In this document: one piece after another, positions 9,272 to 22,284 of the stretch | Layout: every line of letters starts with the position of its first letter | How positions within the stretch are numbered: the stretch's first letter is position 1 | From: a virus | IMG/VR virus record: IMGVR_UViG_3300025292_000014 | Location: 1-22,564 of that record | DNA: 22,564 bases | Direction: 5' to 3' (one strand) | Translations under genes and position numbers: made by a program | The notes under the pieces: model-generated | What the model was told of the DNA's origin: nothing | The model's input: the letters and a program-made list of their open reading frames with translations, nothing else | The model's database searches: none

Positions 9272-11056
9272 TTAGTAATAGACAATATCATCGTCTTCTT
9301 CGTAAGTTTCTTCTATGGCTTCTTTTTCCAAAAATAAAAATATGTAATAGAGTCCGTAGATTAATGCTGAATATTTATCTTTATCTATCTTTTTCATAGT
9401 TTGTTCTACTGTGATAGATTTTTGAGTAGTCTTTAATTTTAAATTAGAAATCTCATCAATTAAATGTTGAGTATGTAGCCTAGCTCTTTCTTCATCAATT
9501 AAGCTGTCATCTCCATAAACAGAGCTTTTTTTGATATTGTCATTAATTTTCAGTAATTTAAGTTTTTCTGTTTCAACGTAATCAATAAATACACGAATAA
9601 TATCACCATTTATCCCAGATGAAATTAAGTCATAAACAATCTTTATTGAATTTTCTGTATCGGGTTTTTGGTTAGTATTTATAGTATCGAAACAACCTAA
9701 CTCATTGTTTGTCTCAGGGTCAGTTACATCTTCTAATAATCTGTCAATTAAACCTTTGCCCAAGCCATTACCATCAACTACTACGGCTTTTACTCTGGAT
9801 TTATTAATATCTTGATTCCCACCGTATTTGTAGAAAAGCTTTTTAATGACTATACTTTGTTCTTTGAAAGTTAACCCATTTGGAGGCTCGACAATATTTA
9901 CTAGTTGTATTTGACGAATTAAGCCTTTAGGGTTTCTGATTATTTTCAATACTACAATAGCAGTCTTATTATTACTTTGAGCAGATGAACGAGCTACATC
10001 TACACCAATTACATATTCATTTAATAAAAAATTACCTCGATTGTCTTTCGGGCACTCAATTTCTGCATTAGCTAGTGTTCTCAAGCTTAGTAGCTTACTT
10101 ATGTTTACTAACGCCCCGTCAGTCGTGCCCACCCATCGTGATTCATAATTCATTGCGAATGCTGTAGCAGAGGTAGTAGGGTCGTTTTTCTTAGCTAATA
10201 GCTGATTTCTCGTTTCGCCACGACCATAATGACAAGGTAATTCCCAACTTGCGCCTAATACAATCTTACCTTTCAACTCAGCCATTTCTTTAATCATGTT
10301 TAATATGCGATTAAACTCATCCGATCCACGATACCCAGATGTTGTTACGAAATTAATCATACCGTTTAATTCATATGGGCTAATTACTGCTTGTTCACCG
10401 ATAGTTCTTCTAGGTACGTTTACGACTGGCTCTAATACATCTTTGAATAATTCATTATTTAATAATGCAGATTCCTCCACATTCAACCTGTGCCTACGTT
10501 GACCTTTAGTACTTTGAGCATTAGCAAGTATAGAATAAGCTCCACCTGATTTGAAAATCACCTCTACAGTATCTTTACTGTGAGTTGCTTTAGAAATCTC
10601 ATTTACTAAAAGGGGGAATTTCCTAATTAATTCCTTATGTTTATCTTCACTTATGGAAGCCGCATTTTCTTTAGTTTGAGCAGACATTGATAAGTTAACA
10701 TCAGGAAAGAATATTGCGGTGTGGTAAATCGACATTAATTCGATCATCGTTTTTCCAAATCCACGAGGGAATACTCCATATGTACTAATAAATCTACTGA
10801 GGCATCTAAGAAATACACGTTGATCTAAATCTAATCTCATACCGCCTTTTTCTGGCTTAATGAGGTCGAACCAGAGGTCAGGAAACCATCTAGCCCATTG
10901 TAAAAACTCAACCCAAGTATTGAAATTGTCATCAAATGAGTTTTTCTTCAAATCATTAACTTTTACTTGGGAATTAAATGCAGGATTATCATTTGTACGA
11001 GAAGTCTCTTTAGAGTGTTTGAAGTTGTCGTCTTGGAAGTTCTTATAACTAGACAT
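9272..11056 (-). CDS. Terminase large subunit
   Basis: This is the DNA packaging motor: an ATPase that pumps DNA through the portal and an RNase H-fold nuclease that cuts the concatemer. Numbering from the upstream ATG at 11071, a Walker A motif PRGFGKT is at 102-108 and a Walker B-like HRLNVEES at 194-201. The nuclease domain shows VIGVDVA (Asp358), VVVDGNG (Asp433) and an acidic C-terminal stretch. I prefer the ATG at 11056, which has GGTGA 5 nt before it. The ATG at 11071 (5 codons longer) has none. This start overlaps the small terminase stop by 8 nt, so the two are translationally coupled. By order it corresponds to yonF of SPβ. Confidence 0.93.
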   Translation of the reverse strand: MSSYKNFQDDNFKHSKETSRTNDNPAFNSQVKVNDLKKNSFDDNFNTWVEFLQWARWFPDLWFDLIKPEKGGMRLDLDQRVFLRCLSRFISTYGVFPRGFGKTMIELMSIYHTAIFFPDVNLSMSAQTKENAASISEDKHKELIRKFPLLVNEISKATHSKDTVEVIFKSGGAYSILANAQSTKGQRRHRLNVEESALLNNELFKDVLEPVVNVPRRTIGEQAVISPYELNGMINFVTTSGYRGSDEFNRILNMIKEMAELKGKIVLGASWELPCHYGRGETRNQLLAKKNDPTTSATAFAMNYESRWVGTTDGALVNISKLLSLRTLANAEIECPKDNRGNFLLNEYVIGVDVARSSAQSNNKTAIVVLKIIRNPKGLIRQIQLVNIVEPPNGLTFKEQSIVIKKLFYKYGGNQDINKSRVKAVVVDGNGLGKGLIDRLLEDVTDPETNNELGCFDTINTNQKPDTENSIKIVYDLISSGINGDIIRVFIDYVETEKLKLLKINDNIKKSSVYGDDSLIDEERARLHTQHLIDEISNLKLKTTQKSITVEQTMKKIDKDKYSALIYGLYYIFLFLEKEAIEETYEEDDDIVYY

Positions 11057-11963
11057 CTTCATCACCGTCATTTAATTGATTGTCAGATTCGCTACCCTCA
11101 TAATCTTTCCTACGTTCTTCATAGAATTGATAAATTTCTTCATATTCAGCAGGTGGCATACCTTGTAAATCTCGTATATAGTTTATATAAAGCCATAATG
11201 TCACATCGACATCATCTTTAGGTTGCTTTACAAATTTAGGTAGGAGAGGGATGATATCTTGATGTTCTTCGACCATACGAGATAATTGCCCAAATCCGTC
11301 TAAACCCTGTGATAAATCAGCTTTACTCATTTGAGAAGGCTTTAATTTACCTGCTTCAGCAGATTCTTTAGCCATAGCCGACCATTCCTTAGCTTCTTTA
11401 AATTCGCCTTTAGCCTTTGCAATAGTTTCCTTAACTTTATTGACGCAATATTCACGTAAATATTCTTCGTGCATTGTGGTAGGTAGTTGGAAACTTGGCT
11501 TTAAATTTACGAATTTCTTCTCAAATAATATATATTCTTCGTCTGGATAACCGTATCCATACTTTTCTTTTAACTCATCTAATAATTCTTGATCAATATT
11601 TTCTATTGATAAGGGTGAATTTTCATCATTCTTATCTTCTTTATCAAAAACACTCTGTTCCCATGTATCTAATTTATAGTCTTTAGCGTTAATGAGTTTA
11701 AAATATTCACCGATAACGTCAGGTTTAGTAAGTGCAGATTCAAACAAATAAATATTAAATGGTTTATCTACTTGTCGTAGAGTATTTTTAACACTATCAA
11801 TATTATTGATGTTCGTTTTATCTTTTAAACACACTTTACAAACACGAAGACGTTCATCTATCTTATCTAAAGAGCTATATGATTTGTAATAATCAGTGAG
11901 CCGTTTGTTTTCTCCACACATGGAACAGTTCTTATATTTATCCTTGTCTTGTAATGTAGACAA
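11049..11963 (-). CDS. Probable terminase small subunit with N-terminal zinc finger
   Basis: 304 residues immediately upstream of, and overlapping, the large terminase gene. The N-terminus carries two CxxC pairs (Cys13/Cys16 and Cys42/Cys45) in the arrangement CSMCGENKRL...RVCKVCLKDK, a treble-clef-like zinc site often seen in phage nucleases and DNA-binding proteins. The rest is acidic and helical. A small terminase selects the packaging start site on DNA, and a zinc-binding recognition domain would fit. No terminase-specific motif is visible, so the call depends on position (yonG of SPβ by order). It starts with TTG, with GAGGTG 7 nt upstream. A long structured leader precedes it. Confidence 0.72.
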   Translation of the reverse strand: MSTLQDKDKYKNCSMCGENKRLTDYYKSYSSLDKIDERLRVCKVCLKDKTNINNIDSVKNTLRQVDKPFNIYLFESALTKPDVIGEYFKLINAKDYKLDTWEQSVFDKEDKNDENSPLSIENIDQELLDELKEKYGYGYPDEEYILFEKKFVNLKPSFQLPTTMHEEYLREYCVNKVKETIAKAKGEFKEAKEWSAMAKESAEAGKLKPSQMSKADLSQGLDGFGQLSRMVEEHQDIIPLLPKFVKQPKDDVDVTLWLYINYIRDLQGMPPAEYEEIYQFYEERRKDYEGSESDNQLNDGDEDV

Positions 11964-13437: not shown

Positions 13438-13647
13438 TTACTCTTCAATTGGTTCTAAATCTTTTTCTTCTTTAGCTGTAAAGGATGCGTTTTTACCATC
13501 GTATTCACGTAGTTTTTCAGTAATATCAAACTTTTCTTCTACAATTTCCTTAGTAATTGGGTCTTTTTTAGATTCAGTAATAAATATTCGTTCATCTTCA
13601 ATACTTACTAAACCTTTATAACTTACTTGTCCTGAATATTTAGCCAT
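13438..13647 (-). CDS. yonK: YonK-like small protein
   Basis: 69 residues. It resembles SPβ YonK as I remember it. The shared elements are a KG-containing N-terminal strand, a charged turn, and a C-terminal EYDGKNASFTAKEEKDL that parallels EFNGKNVSITVKEENEL. The family is a small β-rich fold whose function I do not know; a crystal structure of the B. subtilis protein exists. GGAG lies 10 nt before the ATG. It is preceded by two candidate boxes and a hairpin and forms a two-gene unit with the phosphoesterase. The shared order HU-YonK-YonJ supports the homology. A small DNA- or RNA-polymerase-associated factor is conceivable but not shown by the sequence. Confidence 0.85.
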   Translation of the reverse strand: MAKYSGQVSYKGLVSIEDERIFITESKKDPITKEIVEEKFDITEKLREYDGKNASFTAKEEKDLEPIEE

Positions 13648-13669
13648 AATTTATATTCTCCTGTTCTCC

Positions 13670-13681
13670 ATATGTAATTTA
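13670..13681 (-). promoter_or_regulatory. Intergenic box, copy 17 (divergent)
   Basis: Minus-strand AATAAATTACATATGG, with one extra base and a changed last position, 22 nt before the yonK-like start. It is a second, weaker copy at this junction. Confidence 0.3.
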
Positions 13682-13689
13682 TTTAATTG

Positions 13690-13728
13690 AAATTTAAAGA
13701 ATAGAGAAGGGTAGGGGAGAACCCTACC
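13690..13728 (-). terminator. Hairpin, probable terminator after the HU-like gene
   Basis: Minus-strand GGTAGGG pairs perfectly with CCCTACC around a 5-nt loop, followed by a pyrimidine-rich tail (CTTCTCTATTCTTT). The tail is less T-rich than in the other terminators, so efficiency may be modest. Confidence 0.65.
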
Positions 13729-13768
13729 ACTAACTCCATATTGTATTTAAAACGTCTGTACGATTACG

Positions 13769-13780
13769 CTATGTATTAAA
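13769..13780 (-). promoter_or_regulatory. Intergenic box, copy 9
   Basis: Minus-strand TTTTTAATACATAG, just after the HU-like gene stop codon (13783-13785). The hairpin and box copy 17 follow before the yonK-like start. Confidence 0.45.
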
Positions 13781-13782
13781 AA

Positions 13783-14088
13783 TTAACTATTCAGTCCATC
13801 CTTAAGTTTCTTAGCAGGTTTAAATCCTACTACACGTTTTTCAGCAATATCAATTTCTTCACCTGTCGATGGGTTACGTCCTTTACGTGCTGAACGAACT
13901 TTATTCTCAATCTTACCGAAACCAAAGATATCAATATCATTACCTGTAATTAGCTGTTCACGAATAACCTCGAACACTGTTTCTACTGCAATTTTAGATT
14001 CTTTAGCATCCAATTCAATACCTTTAACTTCTAAAGCCTCTTTTGTTAATTTACCTAATTCTGTTACATTTACTTTTGTGTTTGTCAT
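13783..14088 (-). CDS. yonN: HU-family nucleoid protein
   Basis: 101 residues, slightly longer than the usual 90. The HU/IHF signature is clear: IDIFGFGKIENKVRSARKGRNPSTGEEI (about residues 53-80), which contains the β-arm with the conserved RNP that inserts into the DNA minor groove, then the C-terminal KRVVGFKPAKKLKDGL. HU proteins bend and compact DNA. In SPβ the HU paralogue YonN lies at this position beside YonO. An HU-type protein next to the phage polymerase could help shape late-promoter DNA or assist replication and packaging. GGAG lies 11 nt before the ATG. A box lies 35 nt before the start and another follows the stop. Confidence 0.95.
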   Translation of the reverse strand: MTNTKVNVTELGKLTKEALEVKGIELDAKESKIAVETVFEVIREQLITGNDIDIFGFGKIENKVRSARKGRNPSTGEEIDIAEKRVVGFKPAKKLKDGLNS

Positions 14089-14312: not shown

Positions 14313-16946
14313 CTATTTTCCTGAAAAGTAGTAAGTTTTATTTTGATTGTTTTTGACTACTCTCGCACATTCATCACAATACTTTACTTTATTATTTACT
14401 GTCTTAATTCTAACCCCACAGCACTCACATTGTTTAGTACCTTTAAGGTTGTTCCTCAAATTACTTAAAATGATGTCTCCGTAACAATGCCACAGAGTTT
14501 CTTTTAAAGGAGAATTTCTTTTCTCGTACATATCTTTAATTAAATTATTTACTATTTTATCTTCATTGATATTAAGCTTCTTCATTTCATCTCTAATATG
14601 CTTATAGACAAATAGTAAACCTTCATTTCGATTCTTAATGCCGCTATTACGAATCAACCATCTCTTAGATTGATTTAATTTCTTAAACTTTCCAACAATC
14701 TTATGATTAATATATTCAATTTCTTCACTCATAAGCATTTTATAGTCTAATTCTCCACCTATATCTTTAAACTTAATGTTCTTACTGTAAACAAACTTCC
14801 TCAATCGATTCATTGTACTATTTGTTAAAGGTTCTACATTCTTCTTATCTTTATTTTTTGCTTCTTGAAAGAAGTGGGGTACTTTACCTTTAATAGCTTC
14901 CTTTATACGCTCATTCACATGTTCGGGTCTTTCAGGCATATAAAGTGTTTTAGCATAGTCAATAATATAATTATTTTCAGCAGTGAGCCATTTTACAACA
15001 TCTAAGTCGATAACATTACTTGAGTTAAATATCTTAGTAATGTTGTTACTCACTTCACCGATATTAGCTTTAAATGCCTTTGTTAGACTGTTATAAATAA
15101 GTTCGTTTGTTACAATTTCTGCTTTAGCTACTCCCATTTCATAATATAGGGGTACATTATCTTTCATATTTCTTTCTGCAACATTAATCAATGTATCATT
15201 TTGCACCACTAAGCTTTTATCTCCATCTACATCAAATTGAAGTATTCTTGAAATGGGATCGTGAATGCTCGTATATATTCCTTGAGTTATGAACCATTCC
15301 TCTATTTCTTTATTCTTTACAATAGTTCTAATCGCATGTTCTTTATAGAGGTGAGGGGAGCGTAAAATATCAACTTTTCCTTCATTAAATACATTAGTAA
15401 AAACATTACCGTCAGAAAGCAATCCTTTAGGATGTTTTATATTTTCGAATAAGAATTCACAAAAAGCATATAAGTCTGGTACAAGGTATAAATATTTTCC
15501 TTTTATCCTTAGCTTTCCTGAATAGGCATCATTCAACATGGATTGCTTTTTATCTTTAATTATCCGTTTCGAGTGATTGTCATTGATTAATTCTGGATAA
15601 ATCATCAATCCTTCTTGAAAGTAGTTTTTATTCTTATTTGAATTAGTAGCACCTAAGACTTTAAGGATTGTATTTTTATCGTTATGTATCTTTTTTAAAT
15701 CTTCATTTGTTTCTTGGCATAATGAACGTATTTCTTCATCTGTAATGTCAGTCAATGTCTGCAACATTTGATAATTTAATGATGCATCGCTACCGACATC
15801 CTCTATATTTAATTTATTTGCCTGACATTTATATTTATTGAATTTACTCTTATAATCATCCCAGTCAGAGTAATATTTAGCCATTTTGAATTGACTCTTT
15901 GTAAATATTACTTCAATTTTATCCTCTACTATATCCCATTCTTTACCGTAGATGTCCTTTACTTTTGTATTTTCGCACTCTACAGCGAATTTTTTGAAAT
16001 CGAACGGTACTAAGAGTCCTTTAACAAACGGTAGGCGAGTCATAAACGACTTTTTAGATTTTGATGGAAGTATCATACCACATCCATCTGTATGTTCAAT
16101 ATTTACCGTCAACTCCTTTCTCTCAATTTTATATGTATCTCTATCAATAAAATCAAATAAAGATGTCACAGGTGATTCTAAGTCTGGAACTACGATAGCT
16201 CTCTCAATATCAAAACAATTCCACTTCACACTTGCGGAGGTGATTAATGCTTTATATGCTAATAATTTATTGATGTTACATCCATCATTGGCGTTAATAT
16301 CTTCTAGAGTTAATCCGCATGTTAAAGTTTTTTCATATTTATCCCATAATGATCTTTTGATGAATACTGCTTTTTTTGTTCTAATTTGACCTGCACTTGA
16401 TGAGAAATAGATGTATTCTTCATTATTATATTTAAATCCATTTAGAATAATATCTTCTAGAATATTAAAGTAAAAGGCACGTACCACAATCAAGGAATCT
16501 GAAACTTCATTGATTTTCATTCCCACTGTTCTAGATAAACCTGAATCAAAAATTCCGATTATCTTATTATCGCTTAATGTTTCAGGTCTAAGTTCACGTA
16601 CTCCATCGAATTCAACAAACTTTTGTTTTAACTTTTCTTTAAAATAATTAATAGATGAATTAATTATTTTTGTTTCTTGCTTAAATTCTTTTATGCCTTC
16701 TTTAATTATCATTGCGTATATATTTAATTCAAGTCCTTTTTGGTTATCGCCATTCTTCATGACATTATCTAGATCGTTGAGTGTGTTTTTCAACAGTAGT
16801 TCATGTTCTTTTAGTTTTTCATTAATTTCCTTTTTAGATAAGTAATACTCTAATAATTGTTTATGGATATCATTTTCTTCATCGGTATAGAAACATTCAG
16901 TTCCTAAACTATATATGTATACTTGTTTCTCTAAGGCTTTGCTCAA
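14313..16946 (-). CDS. yonO: YonO-like single-chain DNA-dependent RNA polymerase
   Basis: 877 residues, close to the roughly 900 of SPβ YonO, the phage polymerase that transcribes late genes. YonO belongs to the two-double-psi-β-barrel polymerases related to cellular RNAP β/β' and eukaryotic RNA-silencing polymerases. The catalytic Mg-binding loop DVDGD is at 572-576. The first barrel shows HTDGCGMILPS (285-295) and RLPFVKGLLVPFDF (304-317), whose Lys is typical of the family. An upstream SSSAGQIRTKKAVFI (182-196) resembles the S-x-SQ-LR block of the silencing polymerases. The C-terminus ends in a Cys-rich cluster (Cys840, 842, 843, 857, 860) that looks like a zinc ribbon. The start is TTG, with AAGGAGAG 8 nt upstream. 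The gene follows the yonP-like gene by 54 nt. A box in its leader could give self-activation. Confidence 0.95.
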   Translation of the reverse strand: MSKALEKQVYIYSLGTECFYTDEENDIHKQLLEYYLSKKEINEKLKEHELLLKNTLNDLDNVMKNGDNQKGLELNIYAMIIKEGIKEFKQETKIINSSINYFKEKLKQKFVEFDGVRELRPETLSDNKIIGIFDSGLSRTVGMKINEVSDSLIVVRAFYFNILEDIILNGFKYNNEEYIYFSSSAGQIRTKKAVFIKRSLWDKYEKTLTCGLTLEDINANDGCNINKLLAYKALITSASVKWNCFDIERAIVVPDLESPVTSLFDFIDRDTYKIERKELTVNIEHTDGCGMILPSKSKKSFMTRLPFVKGLLVPFDFKKFAVECENTKVKDIYGKEWDIVEDKIEVIFTKSQFKMAKYYSDWDDYKSKFNKYKCQANKLNIEDVGSDASLNYQMLQTLTDITDEEIRSLCQETNEDLKKIHNDKNTILKVLGATNSNKNKNYFQEGLMIYPELINDNHSKRIIKDKKQSMLNDAYSGKLRIKGKYLYLVPDLYAFCEFLFENIKHPKGLLSDGNVFTNVFNEGKVDILRSPHLYKEHAIRTIVKNKEIEEWFITQGIYTSIHDPISRILQFDVDGDKSLVVQNDTLINVAERNMKDNVPLYYEMGVAKAEIVTNELIYNSLTKAFKANIGEVSNNITKIFNSSNVIDLDVVKWLTAENNYIIDYAKTLYMPERPEHVNERIKEAIKGKVPHFFQEAKNKDKKNVEPLTNSTMNRLRKFVYSKNIKFKDIGGELDYKMLMSEEIEYINHKIVGKFKKLNQSKRWLIRNSGIKNRNEGLLFVYKHIRDEMKKLNINEDKIVNNLIKDMYEKRNSPLKETLWHCYGDIILSNLRNNLKGTKQCECCGVRIKTVNNKVKYCDECARVVKNNQNKTYYFSGK

Positions 16947-16978
16947 TTAATCAACTCTCCTTATTTTTATATAGTATA

Positions 16979-21860: not shown

Positions 21861-21888
21861 AGAAAAGACTAACTAATGATAGTTAGTC
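21861..21888 (-). terminator. Intrinsic terminator, proximal
   Basis: Minus-strand GACTAACTA pairs perfectly with TAGTTAGTC (9 bp) around TCAT, then TTTTCTT. The stop codon of the zinc-knuckle gene is inside the first arm. Confidence 0.85.
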
Positions 21889-22284
21889 GATTGTAATCCA
21901 TTTTTTAATTGTATTGTCTTCATTAAATAAGGGTTTTATATATCTCTTGATGCCTCTTAGAAGGGAGTAAAAGCCTGTATTTTCATTTCCATAAATTAAT
22001 GCTTCTGAAGGAGTATCCCAATTACAGGTTAATGGATTTCCGCATTTGTCATATATGTAGAATAATTTTTTTCTTAATACTGCTATTTGTACAACTTTCT
22101 TTTGTTGTTCATTTTCTAATGTTACAATCGCAATTGCATTTTTCAAATATTCTTCATATTGTTTTTTAGTTGCATTAACTTTTCCAGAACCATCGCATTT
22201 ATAACATAAGCCGTTATCTACATGGGCGTATTCTCTTCTGATACCAGTACCACCACATTTTGAACAAGGAATTAATTTTGACAT
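21883..22284 (-). CDS. Protein with DnaJ-type zinc knuckles
   Basis: 133 residues. The N-terminus has two CxxCxGxG repeats, CSKCGGTG (7-14) and CYKCDGSG (27-34), the zinc-binding unit of the DnaJ cysteine-rich domain; two instead of four repeats gives one zinc site. The remainder is not recognisable and is moderately basic. Such short knuckle proteins are frequent in phages and may bind proteins or nucleic acid. AGGAGG lies 9 nt before the ATG. A σA-like promoter (22325-22352) and two downstream terminators make it a single-gene transcription unit. Confidence 0.85.
   Translation of the reverse strand: MSKLIPCSKCGGTGIRREYAHVDNGLCYKCDGSGKVNATKKQYEEYLKNAIAIVTLENEQQKKVVQIAVLRKKLFYIYDKCGNPLTCNWDTPSEALIYGNENTGFYSLLRGIKRYIKPLFNEDNTIKKWITID

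Follow-up and report, generated by a model that had tools for sequence, protein, structure and literature searches.

A predicted zinc ribbon accompanies YonO-type phage RNA polymerases, fused in one clade and carried by an abutting gene in another

YonO is a minimal relative of cellular RNA polymerases. DNA-dependent RNA synthesis and late-gene specificity are known for the SPbeta YonO only; the first gene of the late operon that it transcribes is yonK, its start site has been mapped to position 2225998 of B. subtilis 168, and how it finds and opens promoters was left unresolved (Forrest et al. 2017, PMC5467207). In the same study a 3D>3N mutant of the SPbeta enzyme is described, in which we take the DxDGD triad to be changed. 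No mention of the ribbon or the partner protein described below was found for YonO in the literature searched, supplementary files and preprints lying outside the search.

The window, the whole stretch of viral DNA analyzed here, is 22,564 nucleotides long (IMG/VR record IMGVR_UViG_3300025292_000014). Its features of immediate concern are as follows.

14313..16946, minus strand: yonO orthologue, 877-aa single-chain two-barrel RNA polymerase (tblastn, PHROG, AF2, Foldseek)
16955..16963, minus strand: Shine-Dalgarno-like AAGGAGAG before the TTG start (sequence)
13783..14088, minus strand: HU-family gene, yonN orthologue, directly downstream (PF00216, E 6e-23; same order in SPBc2)
13438..13647, minus strand: yonK orthologue (PF09642, E 1e-9)

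The 877-codon ORF begins with TTG, as does the annotated yonO of SPbeta. A tblastn comparison gave ~50% identity to SPbeta-group YonO over 98 to 99% of the length (49.8% identity, query residues 4 to 861, E 0), and the protein matches PHROG family phrog_8308 (E 1.3e-268). Pfam and NCBIfam searches with the window protein returned no match; its nearest relative, L014, matches PF05183 (E 4e-13), and the PDB holds no sequence relatives of YonO at E 0.1 or better. The gene order of the window is that of SPbeta, yonO-yonN-yonK-yonJ-yonG-yonF-yonE, where yonF is the terminase and yonE the portal gene, so that yonO sits upstream of a late operon (HU, yonK, yonJ, terminase, portal). We conclude that the ORF is a genuine YonO orthologue, in keeping with the family that the original prediction had named from motifs, and its best explanation is a gene for the putative late-gene RNA polymerase of an SPbeta-like phage. 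Two further window genes show likenesses to other zinc-type motifs: positions 21883-22284 encode a 133-aa protein with an N-terminal CxxC pair like that of the DnaJ zinc domain, and the product of 11049-11963, which adjoins the large terminase gene, weakly matches endonuclease VII-type zinc knuckles at its N terminus.

The motifs on which the family had first been recognized are all present and conserved in relatives.

15219..15233, minus strand: D572-V-D574-G-D576 catalytic metal loop (alignment)
16017..16022, minus strand: K309-G310 of the first barrel (alignment)
16380..16400, minus strand: conserved S183-xxx-Q187-x-R189 block (alignment)
16611..16883, minus strand: predicted long N-terminal helical hairpin, residues 22-112 (AF2 secondary structure)

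In an alignment of 49 clade I relatives (the clade that includes the window; see below), D574, G575, and D576 are invariant and D572 is conserved in at least 90%; K309 is likewise invariant and G310 at least 90% conserved (alignment A6). The AF2 model of the window protein, built with 48 relatives in the alignment, has a mean pLDDT of 92.8. A Foldseek search with it identified 21 chains, E 5e-20 to 4e-13, of plant RDR2 and fungal QDE-1 (best values, 5e-20 for maize RDR2 and 7e-17 for QDE-1), and nothing significant besides these two. The model thus has an RdRP-type two-barrel polymerase fold, in agreement with the likeness to silencing polymerases first noted in the sequence. The N-terminal hairpin is missing from clade II YonO in the deep alignment A2, which was too divergent to scan with.

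The C terminus of the window protein contains cysteines at 840, 842, 843, 857, and 860, all five of which had been proposed to form a zinc ribbon.

14367..14429, minus strand: C-terminal zinc ribbon core, C840-x2-C843-x13-C857-x2-C860 (alignment, pattern counts, AF2)
14316..14366, minus strand: basic helical tail, residues 861-877, behind the ribbon core (AF2, charge)

Four of them bear this out: no substitution of C840, C843, or C857 occurs among the 49 clade I relatives, and at least 90% of these also have C860. C842 is restricted to a few sequences, which leaves a simple four-cysteine motif, CxxC-x13-CxxC. AF2 predicts strands 837-839 and 846-848 as a β-hairpin, followed by a helix at 858-874, at a pLDDT that drops to 76 to 88 in the ribbon. 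The motif is found in 89/89 distinct clade I YonO C termini with intact ends, SPbeta YonO included, and a similar C-terminal motif in 14 of the 1571 remaining gene-sized ORFs in these loci, two of the 14 being broken pieces of the partner gene; these counts rule out a chance occurrence. The C terminus is therefore well supported as a zinc-ribbon-type module by its conserved cysteines, and would be expected to bind zinc.

The ribbon has two modes of occurrence. In a tree of 82 representative YonO loci, one branch with a support of 100 splits 47 loci with the ribbon on the polymerase (clade I, window included) from 29 loci with the ribbon in trans; the other six comprise two with a ribbonless partner and four with neither, one of the four being cut off by the contig end. 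The trans loci belong to a second deep clade, clade II, which consists of Bacillus phage BUCT082, PMBT24, and relatives, 22 to 25% identical to the window protein. The polymerase bodies of the two clades are homologous up to about residue 834 (hhalign, 99%). By pattern, none of 58 distinct clade II polymerases carries the ribbon, which is found instead on an abutting or overlapping gene in 53 of the 58 loci. Relative to the stop codon of the polymerase, this partner gene begins at −50 to +1 nt in each of the 53 distinct cases. The ribbon of the partner has a variant spacing in L093 to L095, the partner copy is frameshifted with its ribbon intact in L081 and L132, and no ribbon was found for L114/L115.

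The partner is ~265 aa long (range, about 245 to 312 aa), with the ribbon at its end. Across 34 partners with a mean column identity of 31%, the four cysteines of the ribbon never vary, and the median net charge of the tails in the two ribbon sets is +7 and +6. Alignment of the clade I and partner ribbon sets by hhalign gave 99% (E 4e-18), compared with 51% and 29% for control zinc knuckles. The ribbon, ~49 columns, is all that a region-wide comparison found in common between the partner and clade I YonO; this rules out that a whole partner was fused to clade I YonO. When 50,697 phage records were searched by tblastn with only the ribbon of the window protein, the matches were YonO C termini, one clade II partner, that of BUCT082 (E 0.04), and a weak pair in Vibrio. 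No ribbon partner gene lies between yonO and the HU gene in the window, and a search of six clade I phage contigs (121 to 141 kb) for a separate partner returned only YonO's own C terminus.

AF2 models the partner (pLDDT, 92.4) with helices, a domain resembling a winged helix, the ribbon, and an extended basic helix. Its Foldseek matches in the PDB are weak winged-helix ones (Nse1, Fur, Cdc6/ORC, MotA, MarR), none below E 0.001; there were no convincing sequence relatives in the PDB, and Pfam and NCBIfam gave nothing above the cutoff. The BUCT082-type partner corresponds to phrog_30716, of unknown function. The partner and the polymerase may associate physically. Partners with two tandem C-terminal ribbons were also observed (L126:8727-9665, L130:10237-11088, and L135:8706-9602).

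Since the ribbon is in cis in clade I and on the next gene in clade II, it is near-obligatory for YonO-type polymerases. It is not universal, because a third lineage, clade III (TR-TP1, L179, L180/L182), has a partner without it; ribbonless coupled partners of this lineage lie at L005:3798-4427, L179:1972-2595, and L182:9671-10372. Homologues lacking the cysteines, which the original prediction had set against its zinc ribbon, do strictly speaking exist, namely, the clade II polymerases; but the adjoining gene encodes the same ribbon there, and this re-supply strengthens the case for its importance.

Among YonO sequences of the B. subtilis group, the ribbon is hypervariable. Across 42 distinct YonO sequences the last ~45 residues differ by 0.64 on average, and the body by about 0.07 to 0.13; variable residues make up most of the ribbon, and 16 ribbon allele groups can be told apart. 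The ribbon is swapped wholesale, as a cassette, between nearly identical genes. The YonO proteins of phi3T (L011) and L069 are identical over residues 1 to 600, with ribbons that are 72% different; the DNA of L042 and L044 is 94 to 100% identical on the flanks and 36 to 62% across a ~200-nt stretch, and L021/L043 show the same pattern, with 78 to 100% identity outside. Tail types recur between distant lineages, and clade I and clade II ribbon DNA match by up to 84% over 55 nt. In a number of loci yonO is split at one of two sites that recur, in some cases together with a GIY-YIG gene: after ..NFTID (L011:5860-6276, L010:3340-4583, L039, and L042 to L051) and at or near the catalytic ..QFD/DGD loop (L164, L139, L067, L127, L128, L133, and L136); the split genes gave no match to Rfam introns at gathering thresholds.

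Exchange of this kind would be expected of a docking or immunity surface, recognized by a prophage-encoded or host inhibitor or by a specific phage partner; swapping would then allow escape from the inhibitor or a change of partner. The ~200-nt cassettes in otherwise near-identical genes, the different ribbons on identical bodies, and alleles that recur across backgrounds and whose DNA is similar to that of clade II partner ribbons all speak for this reading, but no antagonist or covarying partner gene was found near yonO among yonN, yonK, yonJ, and yonP. Mantel correlations of ribbon distance were not significant for yonN (0.09), yonK (0.05), and the RNA segments (0.03 to 0.10); yonJ gave no signal and yonP an r of 0.09. 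The ribbon does correlate with segments of the polymerase itself, most strongly with the adjoining one (r = 0.45, p = 0.001). Moreover, yonJ, yonP, and yonK are mosaic too, less so than the ribbon. We regard a docking or immunity role of the ribbon as doubtful.

The original prediction saw in the ribbon the possible promoter-recognition part of the enzyme. The SPBc2 segment L001:15307-15467 is 100% identical to C1:2225898-2226058 of a 4.2-Mb genome, which places the start site exactly at L001:15407; this agrees with a position obtained separately by converting coordinates via the yomD-bhlB genes. Homologous start regions were read from more than 50 phages, their use outside SPbeta being inferred from sequence identity. 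The core at the start site, TCGGAT/AAT, is invariant. At least six ribbon alleles, and the clade II phage BUCT082, share upstream type A; at least nine alleles, and the clade II loci L090 and L099, share type B; and several alleles sit with both types. Ribbon and upstream distances showed no significant correlation in a set of only 28 phages (Mantel r = 0.125, p = 0.12). In the window, no SPbeta-type promoter was found with TCGGATAATNGTCATTT, allowing three mismatches.

BUCT082 provides a natural module swap: L004:2650-7094 holds a clade II yonO, its partner, and an HU gene, placed in front of a late promoter that differs little from the SPbeta one, and similarity to SPbeta resumes ~186 nt after the yonN stop. 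A polymerase of ~25% identity, with its ribbon in trans, thus faces the same promoter as SPbeta YonO.

That the ribbon reads the late promoter sequence is, in our judgment, unlikely. The ribbon is nearly always associated with the polymerase and is followed by a basic tail, contacts of zinc ribbons with DNA are known from other transcription systems, and the conserved core must be read by something. Against this, 16 alleles face few upstream types, one allele occurs with different promoter types and one promoter type with at least six alleles plus a clade II phage, and the ribbon consists mostly of variable residues whereas the promoter core is invariant. The lack of covariation, together with the use of the same promoter across alleles and clades, speaks against a reading of promoter sequence by the ribbon, and its proposed role as the promoter-recognition part was not borne out. 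Its conserved residues could contact the invariant TCGGAT|AAT core, and it may contact DNA or RNA in a way that does not read sequence.

The start site itself is preceded by an inverted repeat, at −31 to −24 and −16 to −9 (8 bp, 7-nt loop); the repeat as a whole spans −31 to −9 with a stem of 8 to 9 bp, the stems being spaced differently in L081 to L109 and in the B. pumilus prophage L141. In 13 distinct sequences of the same geometry from SPbeta relatives, 97% of cells pair, and four pairs have changed on both sides; this covariation score was reached by 0/500 shuffles and by no slid version. DNA folding supports the hairpin for most variants, weakly for that of B. pumilus. Examples of the repeat followed by TCGGAT/AAT are L001:15376-15406, L032:9459-9489, L085:4634-4664, and L088:10129-10163. 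Its position upstream of the mapped 5' end makes it a candidate DNA hairpin element, possibly a hairpin promoter, though it may have a role in a read-through RNA. A search for the repeat in the window found none. From the start site to yonK, SPbeta has ~1.3 kb of conserved untranslated DNA (L001:15407-16705), which holds a DUF3800-VIII RNA match; this stretch is absent from the window, where the HU-yonK gap measures 135 nt (13648-13782). A conserved block around this gap (window 13679-13808, 84.6% identical to L014:10103-10232) contains the hairpin GGTAGGGTTCTCCCCTACC and a T-rich tail, a candidate terminator or promoter element; in L014, the gap has an insertion whose sequence encodes a GIY-YIG-like motif.

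A view of the ribbon as mere decoration, dispensable and spread promiscuously among phages without any particular part in transcription, is very unlikely to be right: similar CxxC-x-CxxC and basic-tail endings do occur, rarely, on other genes (the phage gene L006:5597-5914 and the 118-aa PHROG family phrog_32573), but the ribbon is present in essentially all clade I and II loci across a deep divergence and is re-supplied in trans where the polymerase lacks it.

We favor, with some reserve, the explanation that the ribbon is a near-obligatory, modular part that contacts nucleic acid, fused or in trans, and is not a reader of promoter sequence. The ribbon and its basic helix form a discrete module, fused to the polymerase in one clade and placed on the translationally coupled partner in the other. 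It may touch DNA, either upstream or template, or else RNA on its way out, and so help initiation or keep the complex stable, and its hypervariability may reflect lax sequence constraint or escape from an antagonist. A bolder version, to be held only tentatively and rather improbable as a whole, makes YonO a two-component system of a catalytic body and an exchangeable ribbon initiation factor (fused, or on the winged-helix partner, then analogous in layout to TFE), with late promoters that consist of a DNA hairpin and a short invariant core instead of a sequence read by the ribbon, and with the ribbon as an arms-race cassette.

The distribution in cis and in trans points to an overlooked component of this minimal polymerase, the ribbon or the clade II partner. 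Matched variants are available in nature, namely, identical bodies that bear different ribbons, and a pair of polymerases, ~25% identical, at the same promoter. Together with the covarying hairpin, the ribbon variants make the question of how promoters are found testable with a few purified proteins and templates.

Compared with known systems, the window protein is closest to its orthologue SPbeta YonO, with which it shares motifs and gene order. It exceeds that protein by 38 aa, most of them in the helical hairpin of the N terminus, and its ribbon is a different allele of the same four-cysteine type (CCICG..KYCQSC in SPbeta). Clade II YonO of the BUCT082 type has a homologous body but a different tail where the window polymerase has its ribbon; the same ribbon is carried by the coupled winged-helix-like protein, unlike the fused ribbon of the window. 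The eukaryotic RNA-dependent RNA polymerases RDR2 and QDE-1 (PF05183) share the two-barrel single-chain fold at only 12 to 14% identity; the late-gene role and the C-terminal ribbon belong to the phage family. The virion RNA polymerase of phage N4 is T7-like, and its hairpin promoters resemble the YonO site in having an inverted repeat directly upstream of the start; at the YonO site the repeat is kept as a structure and not as a sequence, and its extrusion, like any need for it, is putative. Archaeal TFE-alpha/TFIIE-alpha is an initiation factor that consists of a winged helix and a zinc ribbon. The clade II partner has the same layout, a winged helix and then a zinc ribbon, supplied to a polymerase; the likeness is one of layout only, with no significant sequence or fold match, so the partner is not classed there. 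The YonO ribbon may help its polymerase somewhat as TFE assists the archaeal polymerase.
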